Virus record (IMG/VR): IMGVR_UViG_3300047496_000368
Location: 1-25,581 of that record
Length of the DNA stretch: 25,581 nt
From: a virus
Reading direction: 5' to 3' (one strand)
Shown here: one piece after another, positions 4,100 to 25,181 of the stretch
Position numbering within the stretch: the stretch's first letter is position 1
Layout of the letters: every line of letters begins with the position of its first letter
Notes under the pieces: model-generated
Told to the model about the DNA's origin: nothing
The model's input: only the letters and a program-made list of their open reading frames with translations
Databases searched by the model: none
Position numbers and translations under genes: made by a program

Positions 4100-4357
4100 A
4101 TGGATGAGAATGTCGATGCTGCTGGAGATACCAGCGAGCAGCAGGAAATTGCGGCCGCCATACAAACCGTGCTGGCGGCGCATCCGGCCCCTGCAGGTCT
4201 CACCGCCGCGCAGGCCCAGGTGGAAGCGCAGGGGATTTATCACGTGTGGCGCAACAGTTTTTTAAACGCGTTGCCGCCTGATGCCTACCGGCTGGTGGAG
4301 ACCTCCTCCAGCGCCTTGGTCGCGGCGATCGCCGCCAAACTCACAACCGTAACGTAA
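4100..4357 (+). CDS. Hypothetical phage protein between tail terminator and tail tube
   Basis: An 85-residue product starts at ATG 4100 behind GAGG at 4091-4094; the frame stays open upstream but overlaps the previous gene, so this start is preferred. The sequence is helical: an acidic N terminus, a helix QEIAAAIQTVLAAHP, an Ala/Gln-rich stretch, then YHVWRNSFLNALPPDAYRLVETSSSALVAAIAAKL. No domain is recognised. The position just before the tail tube suggests a minor tail or assembly role, but nothing in the sequence confirms it. Confidence 0.65.
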   Translation: MDENVDAAGDTSEQQEIAAAIQTVLAAHPAPAGLTAAQAQVEAQGIYHVWRNSFLNALPPDAYRLVETSSSALVAAIAAKLTTVT

Positions 4358-4370
4358 GGGATTTCTGGCG

Positions 4371-5342
4371 ATGGCCTTAGAAAATTATCTTTTCGGCTCC
4401 AGCAAAATTTATCTGATCCAGCAGGGTGTTGCCGTGCCACGCCCGGTCGAGGTCGGCACCACCCAGGATTTTACGCTGGATATTTCGTGGGGCAGTAAAC
4501 CCCTGCAGGGCCGCAATGACATCGCCGCCATGATAGCGCGCGGCGCAGGCAAGGTGGAGGGCATGATCAAAGCCGCCAAGTTTGATTTTAAAGCCGTGAG
4601 CAGCCTTGTGTTTGGCGCAACCCCAGCTTCTGGCAGCACGCTGACGGCGGATAATGAGATGGCGCCGGTTGGTTACGTGATCCCTGCCCAGGTGACGCTT
4701 GTCACGAGCGCCTCGACCGCCACGGGTGCCGTGTTGACCTTTGCCTCCACCACGGGCGTGGTGCAGGGGCAAAGCGTGAGTGGTGCCAATATCGCTGCTG
4801 GCACCACGGTGCTTTCCACCACCGGCACCACGGTGACGTTGACCCAAAATGTAGCCGGTACCGTTGCAAACAGTGCCAGCATCGTGTTTGGCCCGTCTAT
4901 CACAGTGGCGAATGCCGCAAATTTTGTTTCGGATGGGGGCATCATCTATGCCGCAACTGGCGTGCAGCTCACCCCCGTGGCCTCCGCGCCGGCCACCACC
5001 CAATACACAGTCAGCAATGGGGTTTACACCTTCAGCGCGGCAGATGCCGGGCTGTATGTCATCCCTAGCTACGTTTACACCAAGACCACCGGCAATAATT
5101 TTACCTATTTCGGCCAGCCGATGGGTTATCGCCCGGCTTTCCAAATTGTGGCGAGCAATTTGCAGCGCACCAATAACCCGGCCTATAGCGGCACGCCGCT
5201 GGTGTGCACGGTTTTCAATGCCGGCATCGACAAATTCAGCCTCGATTTCAAAAACGAGGACTGGACGATTCCAGAGACGGGTTGGTCCGGCTCGCTTGAT
5301 TTCCTCAACCGCGCCTTTGCGTTTTCCGGGGACGTGAATTAA
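4371..5342 (+). CDS. Major tail tube protein with beta-domain insert
   Basis: The 323-residue protein occupies the tail tube slot between the terminator and the assembly chaperone. It begins LENYLFGSSKIYLIQ, followed by a strand TTQDFTLDISWGSKPLQG, and ends TIPETGWSGSLDFLNRAFAF, consistent with a tube subunit that stacks as hexameric rings. Residues about 107-174 form a Ser/Thr/Gly/Val-rich insert containing VVQGQSVSGANIAAGTTV and TTVTLTQNVAG. It resembles the two inserts in the connector at 2091 and is likely displayed on the outside of the tube. The stop codon overlaps the next start by one base (TAATG). Confidence 0.77.
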   Translation: MALENYLFGSSKIYLIQQGVAVPRPVEVGTTQDFTLDISWGSKPLQGRNDIAAMIARGAGKVEGMIKAAKFDFKAVSSLVFGATPASGSTLTADNEMAPVGYVIPAQVTLVTSASTATGAVLTFASTTGVVQGQSVSGANIAAGTTVLSTTGTTVTLTQNVAGTVANSASIVFGPSITVANAANFVSDGGIIYAATGVQLTPVASAPATTQYTVSNGVYTFSAADAGLYVIPSYVYTKTTGNNFTYFGQPMGYRPAFQIVASNLQRTNNPAYSGTPLVCTVFNAGIDKFSLDFKNEDWTIPETGWSGSLDFLNRAFAFSGDVN

Positions 5343-20564: not shown

Positions 20565-20893
20565 GGCTCTCCCTCCATGCAGCGCAGCAACATCACCAGG
20601 TTGCCAGCGCTCATGCAGGCATTTTCTAGGTGCCCAAACATCACCGCCAAGCCATCGGCGGGCTGATATTCTGAAAGCGTGTGCGCCGCCTCTCGTCCGT
20701 ACCAAGTCACAACCCGCACGGAGTCACGCTCGGCAATCACCAGCTCCCGCACCGGCCGGGGCAGATGGTTCAGCCGCTCATCATTCTGCACCTGCACCAC
20801 ATCCGCCAAGGCCACCAGAAGGCCGCCAGCCGCCTCCCTCACCGCCGCGTACTTGTCCGCCGCCGCACCCAGCGGCTCAGCCTGCGCGCTCAT
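20561..20893 (-). CDS. Hypothetical phage protein, coupled to AlpA-like regulator
   Basis: The 110-residue product starts at ATG 20893, overlapping the stop of the AlpA-like gene, and ends overlapping the next start. It is mostly helical: ADKYAAVREAAGGLLVALAD, a middle with PRPVRELVIAERDSVRVVTW, and a C-terminal MFGHLENACMSAGNLVMLL. The three-gene chain points to a single functional unit. No domain is recognised. Confidence 0.65.
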   Translation of the reverse strand: MSAQAEPLGAAADKYAAVREAAGGLLVALADVVQVQNDERLNHLPRPVRELVIAERDSVRVVTWYGREAAHTLSEYQPADGLAVMFGHLENACMSAGNLVMLLRCMEGEP

Positions 20894-21141
20894 GCCCGCA
20901 CCGTCGCGGCGCTGGTGGAAGCCACACGCCGGGCGGCGGCCCAGGCTTCCAGGTCACTTATAGCGTAGCCGATGCGGCGTTCACCCAGCATGATGTAAGG
21001 CGGGCCGCCGCCGTTCAAACGCAAGTCTTGCAGGGTGCGCCGGCCGAGTGAGAGGCGAAGCGCCGCCTCGTGCTCCGATACGATACGAAATTGCGTATCG
21101 GGCGGCGGTGCCATCTGCCGTGTGTTTTTCGTGTCCATCAT
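20890..21141 (-). CDS. AlpA/excisionase-like DNA-binding protein
   Basis: From ATG 21141 this is an 83-residue protein. Of three successive ATGs (21144, 21141, 21138), the middle one is seven bases from GGAGG. The HTH region reads SEHEAALRLSLGRRTLQDLR, then a wing with NGGGPPYIMLGERRIGYAISDLEAWAA, the pattern of the winged-helix AlpA/MerR-type family. Such proteins serve as excisionases or transcription activators of phage genes. Here it heads a three-gene leftward chain, so it may act as an excisionase or a regulator of early genes. The integrase lies about 4 kb away at the right end of the window. Confidence 0.78.
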   Translation of the reverse strand: MMDTKNTRQMAPPPDTQFRIVSEHEAALRLSLGRRTLQDLRLNGGGPPYIMLGERRIGYAISDLEAWAAARRVASTSAATVRA

Positions 21142-21206
21142 CATCAAACCTCCACGCCGCGACATGCGGCAGGACATGATGAAGAGCCGTAATTCGCCCT
21201 GATGTC

Positions 21207-21945: not shown

Positions 21946-22827
21946 CTAAATGCAGTACGCCATCCATGAGCATCGGCTCCGCCGCATGTTGTACCGATAA
22001 ACGATCTCTCGCAGGTACAGCGGAAGATACTTGCGGCTGACGTGGTGGAATTGACCGATAATCGCCCGCTTGAGGATCGCCCAAAAGCTCTCAATCGTGT
22101 TGGTGTGCAGCGTGCCAAACAGGTCAGCGGACACGTACTCGCGCGAGTGATTGATAGTGCGATGCGCGACAAAATTGTTAAATCGGCTGTACCCACGGTA
22201 CTCGTCAGTGGTGAGACTGGCTCGCCTTGTGTCGATCATCTCACGGGCGAGAGCCTCAAGGTCAGCGCCGGTCACCTCCGCACTCTGGACGGCCTTGGCT
22301 TTGACGCGTCCACCACGCTCCACGGCACCAACAACCGGCGTCTTGCTGGTGCCACGCCCAAGCGGCTTGGGGTTATGGTCATCTTTGCGATTGGTTCGGC
22401 GCGGTTTGCCGCCCACATACGCCTCATCCATTTCCACCAGGCCCGACAACAACGCACCGTCATCCACCAGCGCCGCGCGAATCCGGTGCATCATCGACCA
22501 GACTGTAGGCCGGCGCATTTCAAGATCGCGCGCCGCCTGCATCGCAGAAAGTCCCTTTTTGGCGTTAAGCATCAGAGAGATCAGCAAAAACCATCGTTGC
22601 AAATCAATGTGACTGTTGTGGAAAATCGTGCCAACGGTAGCCGAAAAGGACCGCTCGCATGACCAACATTGCAGCCGGTCAAGCTGCGATTTTTCCGCTT
22701 TGCGCGCCACAGTATCCGCGCCGCAGGCCGGGCAGTGGATGCCATTTGGCCAGCGCACTTTCTCCAAATGAGCAATCGCCGCCCCCCGATCTGGGAAGCG
22801 GCGATAAATCTCTACCAGGGAGGTCAT
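21946..22827 (-). CDS. IS1595-family transposase
   Basis: The 293-residue protein begins MTSLVEIYRRFPDRGAAIAH and carries an N-terminal zinc ribbon (CPAC at 32-35, CWSC at 54-57). The DDE catalytic residues are placed at Asp134 (VEMDEAYVGG), Asp208 (LTTDEYRGY) and Glu246 (NTIESFWAILKR). Those features and length match the IS1595 group. Translation starts at ATG 22827, whose first base is the last base of the upstream gene's stop (TAATG). No terminal inverted repeats or target duplications could be found by eye, so its status as a complete mobile element is uncertain; it may be a captured transposase. Confidence 0.88.
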   Translation of the reverse strand: MTSLVEIYRRFPDRGAAIAHLEKVRWPNGIHCPACGADTVARKAEKSQLDRLQCWSCERSFSATVGTIFHNSHIDLQRWFLLISLMLNAKKGLSAMQAARDLEMRRPTVWSMMHRIRAALVDDGALLSGLVEMDEAYVGGKPRRTNRKDDHNPKPLGRGTSKTPVVGAVERGGRVKAKAVQSAEVTGADLEALAREMIDTRRASLTTDEYRGYSRFNNFVAHRTINHSREYVSADLFGTLHTNTIESFWAILKRAIIGQFHHVSRKYLPLYLREIVYRYNMRRSRCSWMAYCI

Positions 22828-23108
22828 TATTCGGCAAACTCCGGTTGAGTCGCGCCACAAACCGCGTTGAGGTTGCCAGCGGAACCCCAGAACATTTCGT
22901 AGCCGTTCAGCATCCCGTTGTTGGTGGCGTGCTCCCAGATGGCGCTGTAGTCGCACTTGCCACTAAAATCACCGTCCCAAAACGCCTCAGCTTCAGCGAC
23001 GCTGTGTGCGAAAAATGCAATCGCTTGCATGATGCGCACATCGGTTTCGAGGCTATCGCGAGAAGCGATAAAGGCGGCGGCTTCGTCGGTTTCGTTCCAT
23101 CTTGCCAT
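22827..23108 (-). CDS. Small hypothetical phage protein upstream of the transposase
   Basis: The 93-residue product starts at ATG 23108 with AGGAG seven bases upstream. It is acidic and helical: NETDEAAAFIASRDSLETD, then a middle with VRIMQAIAFFAHSVAEAEAF and YSAIWEHATNNGMLNGYEMFW. No family is recognised. The gene has its own strong promoter (23156-23184). Its stop overlaps the transposase start, so the transposase may be read from the same mRNA. It appears to be complete. Confidence 0.7.
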   Translation of the reverse strand: MARWNETDEAAAFIASRDSLETDVRIMQAIAFFAHSVAEAEAFWDGDFSGKCDYSAIWEHATNNGMLNGYEMFWGSAGNLNAVCGATQPEFAE

Positions 23109-23149
23109 TTTTTGTCTCCTAAATTTGGATTGCTTGATTGCTCTCCATG

Positions 23150-23180
23150 CATCTAAATCTAATCGCACTAGATTTAGATG
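23150..23180. repeat. 12-bp perfect palindrome overlapping a promoter
   Basis: CATCTAAATCTA at 23150-23161 and TAGATTTAGATG at 23169-23180 are perfect inverted copies around the spacer ATCGCAC. The repeat covers the spacer and -10 of the leftward promoter, and touches the -35, so it looks like a repressor operator. Confidence 0.85.
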
Positions 23181-23987: not shown

Positions 23988-24011
23988 GGGTTCACTCCAT
24001 GGTTTGGGTTA

Positions 24012-24045
24012 GGCCGAGCCGAGCGCGGGAACGCTCTGTTCGGCC
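24012..24045. repeat. Interrupted inverted repeat in divergent control region
   Basis: GGCCGA at 24012-24017 pairs with TCGGCC at 24040-24045, and GAGCG at 24021-24025 with CGCTC at 24032-24036, separated by three-base internal loops. It lies in the 112 bases between the divergent genes at 23987 and 24100 and may be an operator or a hairpin in the leftward leader. Confidence 0.55.
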
Positions 24046-24063
24046 GAATTTAGATTGAGGCAA

Positions 24064-24091
24064 TTGCAAAAAATCGCCACCACGTTACTAT
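24064..24091 (+). promoter_or_regulatory. Candidate promoter for the Xre regulator
   Basis: TTGCAA at 24064-24069 and TACTAT at 24086-24091 are 16 bases apart; an overlapping TATAAA at 24089 is an alternative -10. The predicted start is close to the ATG at 24100, with no ribosome-binding site between, suggesting a leaderless message. Confidence 0.45.
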
Positions 24092-24099
24092 AAACACTG

Positions 24100-24351
24100 A
24101 TGGCAGAAATCGCAACAGGGTTATCATTAACCCCTATTCAAGTTAAAATGGCGCGTGTTGCCCTCGGCTTAGGCGTGCGTGATCTGGCGTTAGCAGTAGG
24201 CATATCAACGAATACCATTGCCCGCTTTGAGCGCGGAGAGGAGCTGAAAGCCTCAACGGTGTCAGCCATCCGCACCGCCCTGGAAGCCGCCGGGGTAGAG
24301 TTCATAGCCGAGAACGGCGGCGGCCCCGGCGTTCGGCTCGGCAAAAAATAA
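24100..24351 (+). CDS. Xre-family transcriptional regulator
   Basis: The 83-residue protein consists of one helix-turn-helix unit: SLTPIQVKMARVALGLGVRD, LALAVGISTNTIARFERGEE, followed by TVSAIRTALEAAGVEFI and a glycine-rich end (ENGGGPGVRLG). This is a common small repressor-type protein in alphaproteobacteria. It is divergent from the gene at 23538 and may repress the intergenic promoters or its own. There is no ribosome-binding site just before the ATG, and the candidate promoter ends within ten bases of it. The lack of a cleavable C-terminal domain makes it unlike a LexA-type cI. Confidence 0.85.
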   Translation: MAEIATGLSLTPIQVKMARVALGLGVRDLALAVGISTNTIARFERGEELKASTVSAIRTALEAAGVEFIAENGGGPGVRLGKK

Positions 24352-24357
24352 CCCCCA

Positions 24358-24439
24358 CCCGCCGCCCGGTCCAAGCATTCGACTTTTAATCGAACGCCCC
24401 CGCCGCCCGGTCCGGGCACGAGACTTCTAATCACGTGGC
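24358..24439 (+). repeat. Two tandem 41-bp units with anticodon-arm-like hairpins
   Basis: Units at 24358-24398 and 24399-24439 share an identical 15-base start (CCCGCCGCCCGGTCC) and a GACTTnTAATC core exactly 41 bases apart. In unit 1, TTCGA (24378-24382) and TCGAA (24390-24394) form a 5-bp stem around the loop CTTTTAA. In unit 2, CACGAGA (24417-24423) and TCACGTG (24431-24437) pair with one mismatch around CTTCTAA. A 5-bp stem with a 7-base loop and T at loop position 2 is the shape of a tRNA anticodon arm, reading UUU (Lys) and UCU (Arg). No other tRNA arms are present. Confidence 0.7.
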
Positions 24440-24489
24440 TATTCGATAACGCGAACGGCGTTCTCACCTAACCCGCAGCCGCTTTATCA

Positions 24490-24506
24490 ATTCTCAAATA
24501 GAGAAT
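24490..24506. promoter_or_regulatory. Palindromic operator 1 of the toxin-antitoxin promoter
   Basis: ATTCTC-AAATA-GAGAAT is a perfect 6-bp inverted repeat with a 5-base spacer. It lies just upstream of the -35 box. Its arms are identical to operator 2, with centres 37 bases apart. Confidence 0.75.
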
Positions 24507-24511
24507 TTACA

Positions 24512-24540
24512 TTGACAATGCCCGGCATTCTCTGTAAGAG
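24512..24540 (+). promoter_or_regulatory. Promoter of the toxin-antitoxin operon
   Basis: A consensus -35 TTGACA at 24512-24517 is followed 17 bases later by TAAGAG at 24535-24540 as a poor -10. Operator 2 covers the -10. The expected start site is close to the GTG at 24547, leaving essentially no leader. Confidence 0.55.
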
Positions 24541-24543
24541 AAT
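24527..24543. promoter_or_regulatory. Palindromic operator 2 of the toxin-antitoxin promoter
   Basis: ATTCTC-TGTAA-GAGAAT has the same arms as operator 1 and overlaps the -10 region. Binding here would block the RNA polymerase, as expected for autoregulation by the Xre antitoxin or the complex. Confidence 0.75.
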
Positions 24544-24546
24544 TGA

Positions 24547-24798
24547 GTGGCCGTCATCATCCCTCCCGCTGTTTACAAACAGATGAAGGCGATACCTAAG
24601 GCGGATGTTGACCGCCTTGTGGCGGCCCTTGAACAAGTCGCGGCAGACCTCACCACTCGCCTGCCGTTTGTGACCGAGATGGTCGGCCAGCCAGGCGTGT
24701 GGCGGTTGCGTAAGGGGAACTGGCGGGCTGTGTACACCATCGAGGGTGCGGACGTAGTGGTGACGAGAGTCGGGAATCGAAGGGAGATTTACGAATGA
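24547..24798 (+). CDS. RelE/HigB-like toxin
   Basis: The 83-residue protein starts at GTG 24547. It shows the RelE-type layout: helices PAVYKQMKAIPKADVDRLVA, then a beta core with GVWRLRKGNWRAVYTIEGAD and a C-terminal RVGNRREIYE, where the basic residues of this family contact mRNA and the ribosome. RelE-like toxins cut mRNA at the ribosome. Gene order is toxin first with a four-base overlap to the antitoxin, the HigBA arrangement. Its promoter carries two palindromic operators. Sitting next to the integrase, it may stabilise the prophage. Confidence 0.85.
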   Translation: MAVIIPPAVYKQMKAIPKADVDRLVAALEQVAADLTTRLPFVTEMVGQPGVWRLRKGNWRAVYTIEGADVVVTRVGNRREIYE

Positions 24799-25181
24799 AC
24801 GCAATAAAACTTTTGGCAGAGACGGCCGATACCGTCACCATCAGCCGGGGAGACCTTGAGGCCTTGATCCAGGCCGCAGAAGATGCGGAAGACATCGCAG
24901 CCGTGCAGCAGCGCCGCCAGGAAGAGGAGCGCGCGGGCGGCTATGAGGCTGCAAAGGCGAATTACTTTACCCTTGATGAGACCAAGCGCCTGCTGGCGGG
25001 TGAAAGCCCGGTCCGCATCTGGCGGGAAAAGCGCGGCCTCTCCCAACGCGCTCTGGCTGAAGCCGCCCGGATGCAGCCCGGCTATTTGAGTGAGATAGAA
25101 ACCGGCAAGAAGCCCGGCAGCCTGGCCGCCTACACCGCCCTCTCAGCCGCCCTGAATGTCTCCATAGAAGACCTCACCTAA
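24795..25181 (+). CDS. Xre-family antitoxin
   Basis: The 128-residue product overlaps the toxin stop (ATGA). The N-terminal 50 residues are a charged helix (SRGDLEALIQAAEDAEDIAA, then QQRRQEEER) that could cover the toxin. The C-terminal half is a helix-turn-helix: WREKRGLSQRALAEAARMQP, then GYLSEIETGKKPG and TALSAALNVSIEDL. It should neutralise the toxin and repress the shared promoter at the ATTCTC palindromes. The gene ends 23 bases before the converging integrase stop, in a GC-rich stretch with a short inverted repeat (CCGCC at 25183-25187 and GGCGG at 25193-25197) too weak to call a terminator. Confidence 0.85.
   Translation: MNAIKLLAETADTVTISRGDLEALIQAAEDAEDIAAVQQRRQEEERAGGYEAAKANYFTLDETKRLLAGESPVRIWREKRGLSQRALAEAARMQPGYLSEIETGKKPGSLAAYTALSAALNVSIEDLT

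Follow-up and report, generated by a model that had tools for sequence, protein, structure and literature searches.

Tandem sequences resembling the anticodon arms of tRNA-Lys(UUU) and tRNA-Arg(UCU) downstream of an Xre gene in a temperate-phage fragment, and their possible role as RNA baits

Where a tyrosine integrase is directed at the anticodon loop of a tRNA gene, the DNA it acts on is a segment of about 21-25 bp with the loop in its middle, made up of a 7-bp overlap and the stem half-sites, and in the E. coli thrS operator an anticodon mimic within the mRNA is bound by an aminoacyl-tRNA synthetase. When tRNA sequence turns up in a phage, the normal interpretation is either a whole tRNA gene or a scar left by integration; in the present study we describe very probable tandem copies of the arms of two tRNAs, which fit neither. 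The anticodon-arm attachment sites of tyrosine integrases leave displaced 3' tRNA fragments, and a normal attP has one half of the tRNA, rebuilding the gene (PMC4383910). The locus shares with these sites the part of the tRNA gene that is concerned, the host group and a nearby integrase, and differs from them in that it has the arm only, with both sides of the loop, from two tRNAs in tandem, without a 3' half and on the wrong side of the integrase gene. In the tRNA-dependent lysogeny phages (Fionnbharth and others) attP likewise shares a short piece of tRNA-Lys-TTT without rebuilding it; there, however, the core is about 10 bp, the phage has a complementing tRNA gene and attP lies upstream of the integrase gene (PMC10865867), whereas here the identity extends over 21-23 and 17 nt, concerns two tRNAs, and is found in a 25.6-kb partial genome with no tRNA gene. 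Phage tRNAs that evade tRNA-targeting defences have in common with the locus a phage-borne sequence of the attacked isotypes; these tRNAs are whole and functional (PMC10264068, PMC11555353), whereas arms alone would be unable to decode. Finally, the mRNA of yeast HisRS contains an anticodon-arm-like hairpin that is bound by a tRNA-recognising protein (PMC6542539). Synthetase mRNA mimics of this kind regulate the synthetase gene, unlike the present units, which are phage DNA, resemble two isotypes and are accompanied by no synthetase gene.

The window, that is, the whole stretch of DNA analysed, is a 25.6-kb linear viral record representing a temperate-phage fragment, which extends from capsid and tail genes to an integrase gene cut at the right contig end (Table 1). 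Two tandem 41-bp units, beginning at 24358 and 24399 (spacing 41), show 82% identity over 34 nt with their first 15 nt identical, and the core GACTTnTAATC occurs twice in the whole window, both times in the units. Direct-repeat and pattern analysis thus bear out the initial annotation, in which the units were recognised by this common lead and core. It had also placed them between an Xre regulator and a toxin-antitoxin operon at about 0.8 kb from the integrase, in agreement with the 0.77 kb that separate them from the 3' end of that gene. The first repeat begins 7 nt past the xre stop codon, on the sense strand. Two TTCTCT..AGAGAA operators flank the toxin-antitoxin promoter, and the same pair, kept in related operons of other phages and genomes, precedes the related toxin genes of L072-L074, L093 and L094, where the repeats are absent. 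Type III toxin-antitoxin systems (ToxIN) likewise have short tandem repeats in front of a toxin gene; this candidate was ruled out, as the toxin is of the ParE type (PF05016) and not a ToxN/CptN/TenpN nuclease, the antitoxin is an HTH protein, and the operon relatives have no repeats.

Table 1. Features at the right end of the window, ordered by position
Feature	Position	Strand	Basis or remark
Xre-type HTH regulator, 83 aa	24100..24351	+	Pfam HTH_3; 74% DNA identity to G145 locus (same clade)
Leader copy 1, CCCGCCGCCCGGTCC	24358..24372	+	direct repeat
tRNA-Lys(UUU) anticodon-arm copy	24374..24396	+	21/21 to host-clade tRNA-Lys(TTT), 23/23 to L240 variant
Loop of the Lys arm, CTTTTAA	24383..24389	+	anticodon position 24385..24387
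Leader copy 2, same sequence as copy 1	24399..24413	+	direct repeat
tRNA-Arg(UCU) anticodon-arm copy	24416..24439	+	17/17 to tRNA-Arg(TCT); 21/23 over positions 24-46 to nearest variant; exact to 24432, 3' side then diverged (A.A stem mismatch)
Loop of the Arg arm, CTTCTAA	24424..24430	+	
Toxin-antitoxin operon promoter with inverted-repeat operators, separate from the repeats	24487..24546	+	inverted repeat
ParE-type toxin	24547..24798	+	Pfam PF05016
HTH antitoxin	24795..25181	+	Pfam HTH_3/HTH_31
Tyrosine integrase, C-terminal part, cut by contig end	25205..25581	-	PHROG integrase match

The loops of the two units had been proposed to read Lys UUU and Arg UCU, and comparison with real tRNA genes demonstrates that this reading is correct to the base. 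In unit 1, AGCATTCGACTTTTAATCGAA (24374-24394) matches tRNA-Lys(TTT) at 21/21 positions, and the prophage-borne tRNA-Lys in L240 is matched at 23/23, reaching 24396; in unit 2, GCACGAGACTTCTAATC (24416-24432) matches tRNA-Arg(TCT) at 17/17 positions, with 21/23 over positions 24-46 against its nearest variant, all these identities being to tRNA genes of the Acetobacterales clade, i.e. of the likely host clade and not of the host strain itself. The assignment of Acetobacterales as the host clade is likely on sequence grounds, and the best relatives of the integrase fragment (46-56% identity) come mostly from Acetobacteraceae and Rhodospirillales. A pattern covering both unit cores matched, in Acetobacterales genomes, GCATTCGACTTTTAATC and GCACGAGACTTCTAATC, which are the two sequences of the window, plus GCACGAGACTTTTAATC; in every instance inspected GCATTCGACTTTTAATC belonged to tRNA-Lys(TTT) and GCACGAGACTTCTAATC to tRNA-Arg(TCT), and no fewer than eight genomes of the clade have both tRNAs.

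Compared with the 42 tRNA genes of one genome (G416) on both strands, the window has its two longest exact matches in unit 1 (21 nt) and unit 2 (17 nt), lying 41 bp apart in a nearly equal register and followed by a third match of 14 nt. The longest tRNA match in 100 simulated windows (first-order Markov) was 12-15 nt in all but two, which reached 16 and 17 nt, and the expected number of matches is about 4e-5 for 21 nt or more and about 0.01 for 17 nt or more (51 kb x 3.3 kb / 4^n). Furthermore, wherever the 5' side or the anticodon distinguishes the two units, the bases of each are those of its own tRNA. The initial annotation had also considered a regulator site with a chance likeness to tRNA, for which it could be said that stem-loops with a 7-nt loop are common and that any likeness would appear two times in a simple repeat. 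The exact matches to two different tRNAs, set against the peak of the simulations, and the way in which each unit tracks its own tRNA lead us to reject this explanation, whose probability we consider negligible. The units are, very probably, authentic copies of just the anticodon arms of host tRNA-Lys(UUU) and tRNA-Arg(UCU); the comparison with host tRNA genes that had been suggested, made here with the host clade, found a match and leaves the proposed likeness standing.

The copied segment is the anticodon arm alone, corresponding to about positions 22-46 of the tRNA, with the identity ending at about 22/25 and 43/46, and neither unit contains any D loop, T arm or acceptor. ARAGORN finds zero tRNA genes in the 25.6-kb fragment, and the Rfam tRNA model, run over 24000-24800 with E up to 10, gives no tRNA and chance matches only. 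A tRNA gene or pseudogene is ruled out, the D arm, T arm and acceptor being unrecognisable by both programs. Thus, an arm-only copy lacking those parts can be taken neither for a tRNA gene nor for a normal attP, which restores the tRNA.

An attachment-site remnant had been among the roles initially suggested, and for the neighbouring integrase this is disfavoured. In five relatives of this integrase (L077, L078, L079, L081 and L082) the integrase gene is closely preceded on its 5' side by a tRNA-Arg(CCT) copy that reaches from the anticodon loop to the 3' end; in L078, L079 and L082 this copy ends about 0.1 kb short of the reading frame. The position expected from the relatives falls off the right contig end of the window, where the 5' side of the integrase gene is absent, and the repeats lie beyond its 3' end, which is the opposite side. 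As the attP of the resident integrase the units therefore fail in position, since they are not just 5' of the gene, and in the rebuilding of the target, since the identity reaches neither end of the tRNA. The lack of either tRNA half, together with the location on the wrong side of the gene, indicates that this is not an ordinary integration site. As regards the relatives themselves, the full tRNA-Arg(CCT) is located at a distance of 7-9 kb in L077, L079 and L082, which implies islands of that size; in L079 (6580-6870) the tRNA 3' fragment of the att site apparently occurs in about four repeats with an 88-bp spacing (GGTTCGAATCCCGCC...), and L078, L079 and L082 have a conserved GC-rich stretch of about 300 bp 3' of the integrase gene (from about 8390) with no obvious reading frame.

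The part of the suggestion that stays a candidate is that the units are cores of another integrase, being relics of, spare sites for, or attB-like lures of non-resident integrases aimed at tRNA-Lys(UUU) and tRNA-Arg(UCU). The copied segment corresponds to the minimal att core, L240, a prophage of apparently the same clade, has an integrase beside its tRNA-Lys(UUU), and the site used by the relatives of the resident integrase is in an anticodon arm as well, that of tRNA-Arg(CCT). Moreover, prophages with this Xre often have ordinary att copies of tRNA 3' halves within a few kb, and short-core attP sites without rebuilding exist, including at tRNA-Lys-TTT (PMC10865867). However, the known cores of the latter type share only about 10 bp (PMC10865867), and the identity observed here covers both sides of the loop instead of the one side usual for attP. 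Integration at the units would rebuild neither tRNA, the 3' half and the 5' half both being absent, and the window, although a partial contig from which the left part of the genome is also missing, contains no complementing tRNA gene. The side of the resident integrase gene is the wrong one, and two different cores share one identical leader. With these points on both sides we regard such attachment cores as quite possible, if short of probable; if they are real, the phage holds sites for two essential tRNA genes and rebuilds neither of them.

In viral contigs the relatives of the Xre gene do not share the sequence downstream of it, and the tandem motif is absent. Scans of viral contigs with exact patterns (leader plus core; tandem cores; leader plus any anticodon arm) gave none, or 3 and 2 matches without related context, and the same scans of 347 family, 299 order and 38 genus genomes gave none; no second tandem array or homologue keeping the repeats was found in these contigs and genomes by exact patterns, from which diverged arrays may escape. 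DNA comparison with phage records returned weak GC-rich matches only. With no homologous array at hand there is no covariation to be analysed.

Copies of single arms were also searched. The Lys arm is present in 21 viral contigs, essentially always within a full tRNA gene, the exception being a contig-end copy in L240; a Ser arm was found as an arm-only copy solely in L009's own contig. A search of 0.92 Mb of related loci gave four top-scoring arm copies (21/23, positions 24-46) that lack a T arm, namely the two of the window and one each in L009 and L035. The former, a 64-kb prophage contig, matches the anticodon arm of tRNA-Ser(UGA) exactly over 22 nt at 4315-4338 (-), with no other part of the tRNA, at 0.68 kb from an Xre gene of the window's family. 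The latter has at 4785-4815 (-) a tRNA-Thr(GGU) anticodon-arm copy (GGTAGAGCcCTCCCTTGGTAAGGGAGAG) that precedes an Xre gene of the same family by 0.2 kb and lies within a possible 82-aa reading frame. The location of arm-only copies within 0.7 kb of Xre genes in 3/3 phage contigs points to an enrichment that is suggestive only, given a small sample of loci fetched via that Xre and a share of near-Xre sequence of 18-30% of the searched DNA.

The absence of the repeats from the relatives of either flank (Xre and toxin-antitoxin), together with the divergence already seen in unit 2, would suit a neutral capture, in which pieces of tRNA genes were inserted by illegitimate recombination, duplicated with the leader and left functionless. 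Nevertheless, that two tRNAs should contribute nearly the same segment, on the same strand and behind the same leader, is hard to explain without selection or a site-specific process, and L009 and L035 each have an arm-only copy of yet another tRNA. We judge this origin to be unlikely.

The seven-base loops in short stems that had been described for both units are indeed seen. Unit 1 forms a perfect 5-bp stem (TTCGA/TCGAA), and unit 2 a stem (CGAGA/TCACG) with one A.A mismatch, extended by the outer pairs CACG/CGTG. The folding energy of the repeat stretch as RNA is not better than that of shuffles on the + strand (z about -0.6 to -1.3), and the minus strand reaches a z of -2.0; the energy is unremarkable, so that structure alone proves nothing and the claim cannot rest on it. 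The somewhat better folding of the minus strand could be taken in favour of an antisense or guide RNA pairing with both tRNAs over 17-23 nt, and so could the perfect complementarity over 21-23 nt (Lys) and 17 nt (Arg) and the repeat-spacer look of the units (15-nt repeat, 26-nt spacer). The repeats, however, are too short and, being only two, too few for a CRISPR-like array, no associated protein was recognised among the neighbouring genes scanned, and the search for close-range minus-strand promoter-like sites leading into the units gave one weak match only (24518-24490), all of which makes a guide function very improbable. Nor is a CRISPR-like array in the strict sense, with repeats of about 23 nt or more in several copies and cas genes, what is found here, the repeat being of 15 nt and in two copies.

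The explanation that we prefer is that the units may function as an RNA bait for proteins that bind anticodon arms, a tentative proposal almost equally likely as the attachment cores. The units would be transcribed with xre, forming the 3' end of its message, and would then fold in the cell into two anticodon stem-loops. These stem-loops may capture proteins recognising such arms, most simply tRNA-cutting anti-phage effectors of the host or rival toxins, and in consequence the real tRNAs would be spared. The computation gives directly the identity of the arms, their register, the absence of the rest of the tRNA and the position on the sense strand.

Several observations favour the bait. The exact matches concern the same part of two tRNAs that co-occur in genomes of the clade, the identity is confined to the arm on both sides, and two isotypes stand behind one leader at a place that is wrong for the integrase. 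Each unit comprises a complete anticodon arm, unit 1 folds as one and unit 2 nearly so, the units follow the xre stop codon closely in the sense orientation, and arm-only copies exist in two other phage contigs. In addition, the isotypes are of interest to tRNA-cutting effectors, tRNA-Lys(UUU) being a favoured target of PARIS AriB (PMC12409363) and of Cas13a (PMC11042736), and the evasion of tRNA-targeting attack by whole phage tRNAs is known (PMC10264068, PMC11555353). The proposal is weakened by the unexceptional folding energy, the mismatch in the stem of unit 2, the lack of a homologous array and hence of covariation, the location of the L035 copy in a possible reading frame, and the fact that core sites of integrases would also look like arm-only copies. 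No report of phage anticodon-arm decoys was found in the literature searched; if the units are baits, they would represent a new and very small counter-defence device against tRNA-cutting immunity, and a minimal alternative to whole tRNA genes. The wider generalisation, that some temperate phages carry stripped anticodon-arm copies beside a small Xre gene as RNA baits against anticodon-cutting defence, appears to us conceivable and rather doubtful.

With regard to the neighbouring genes, the region 3' of this Xre appears as a hot spot for cassettes, with ParE/HTH in the window, PemK/MazF in L190 and a TacA-type antitoxin in L035. An inverted repeat (CATCTAAATCTA / TAGATTTAGATG, 23146-23177), likely an operator, fronts a minus-strand open reading frame at 22827-23168, and a minus-strand open reading frame of 95 aa (20890-21177), located 4 kb from the integrase gene, resembles an excisionase/regulator (phrog_66).
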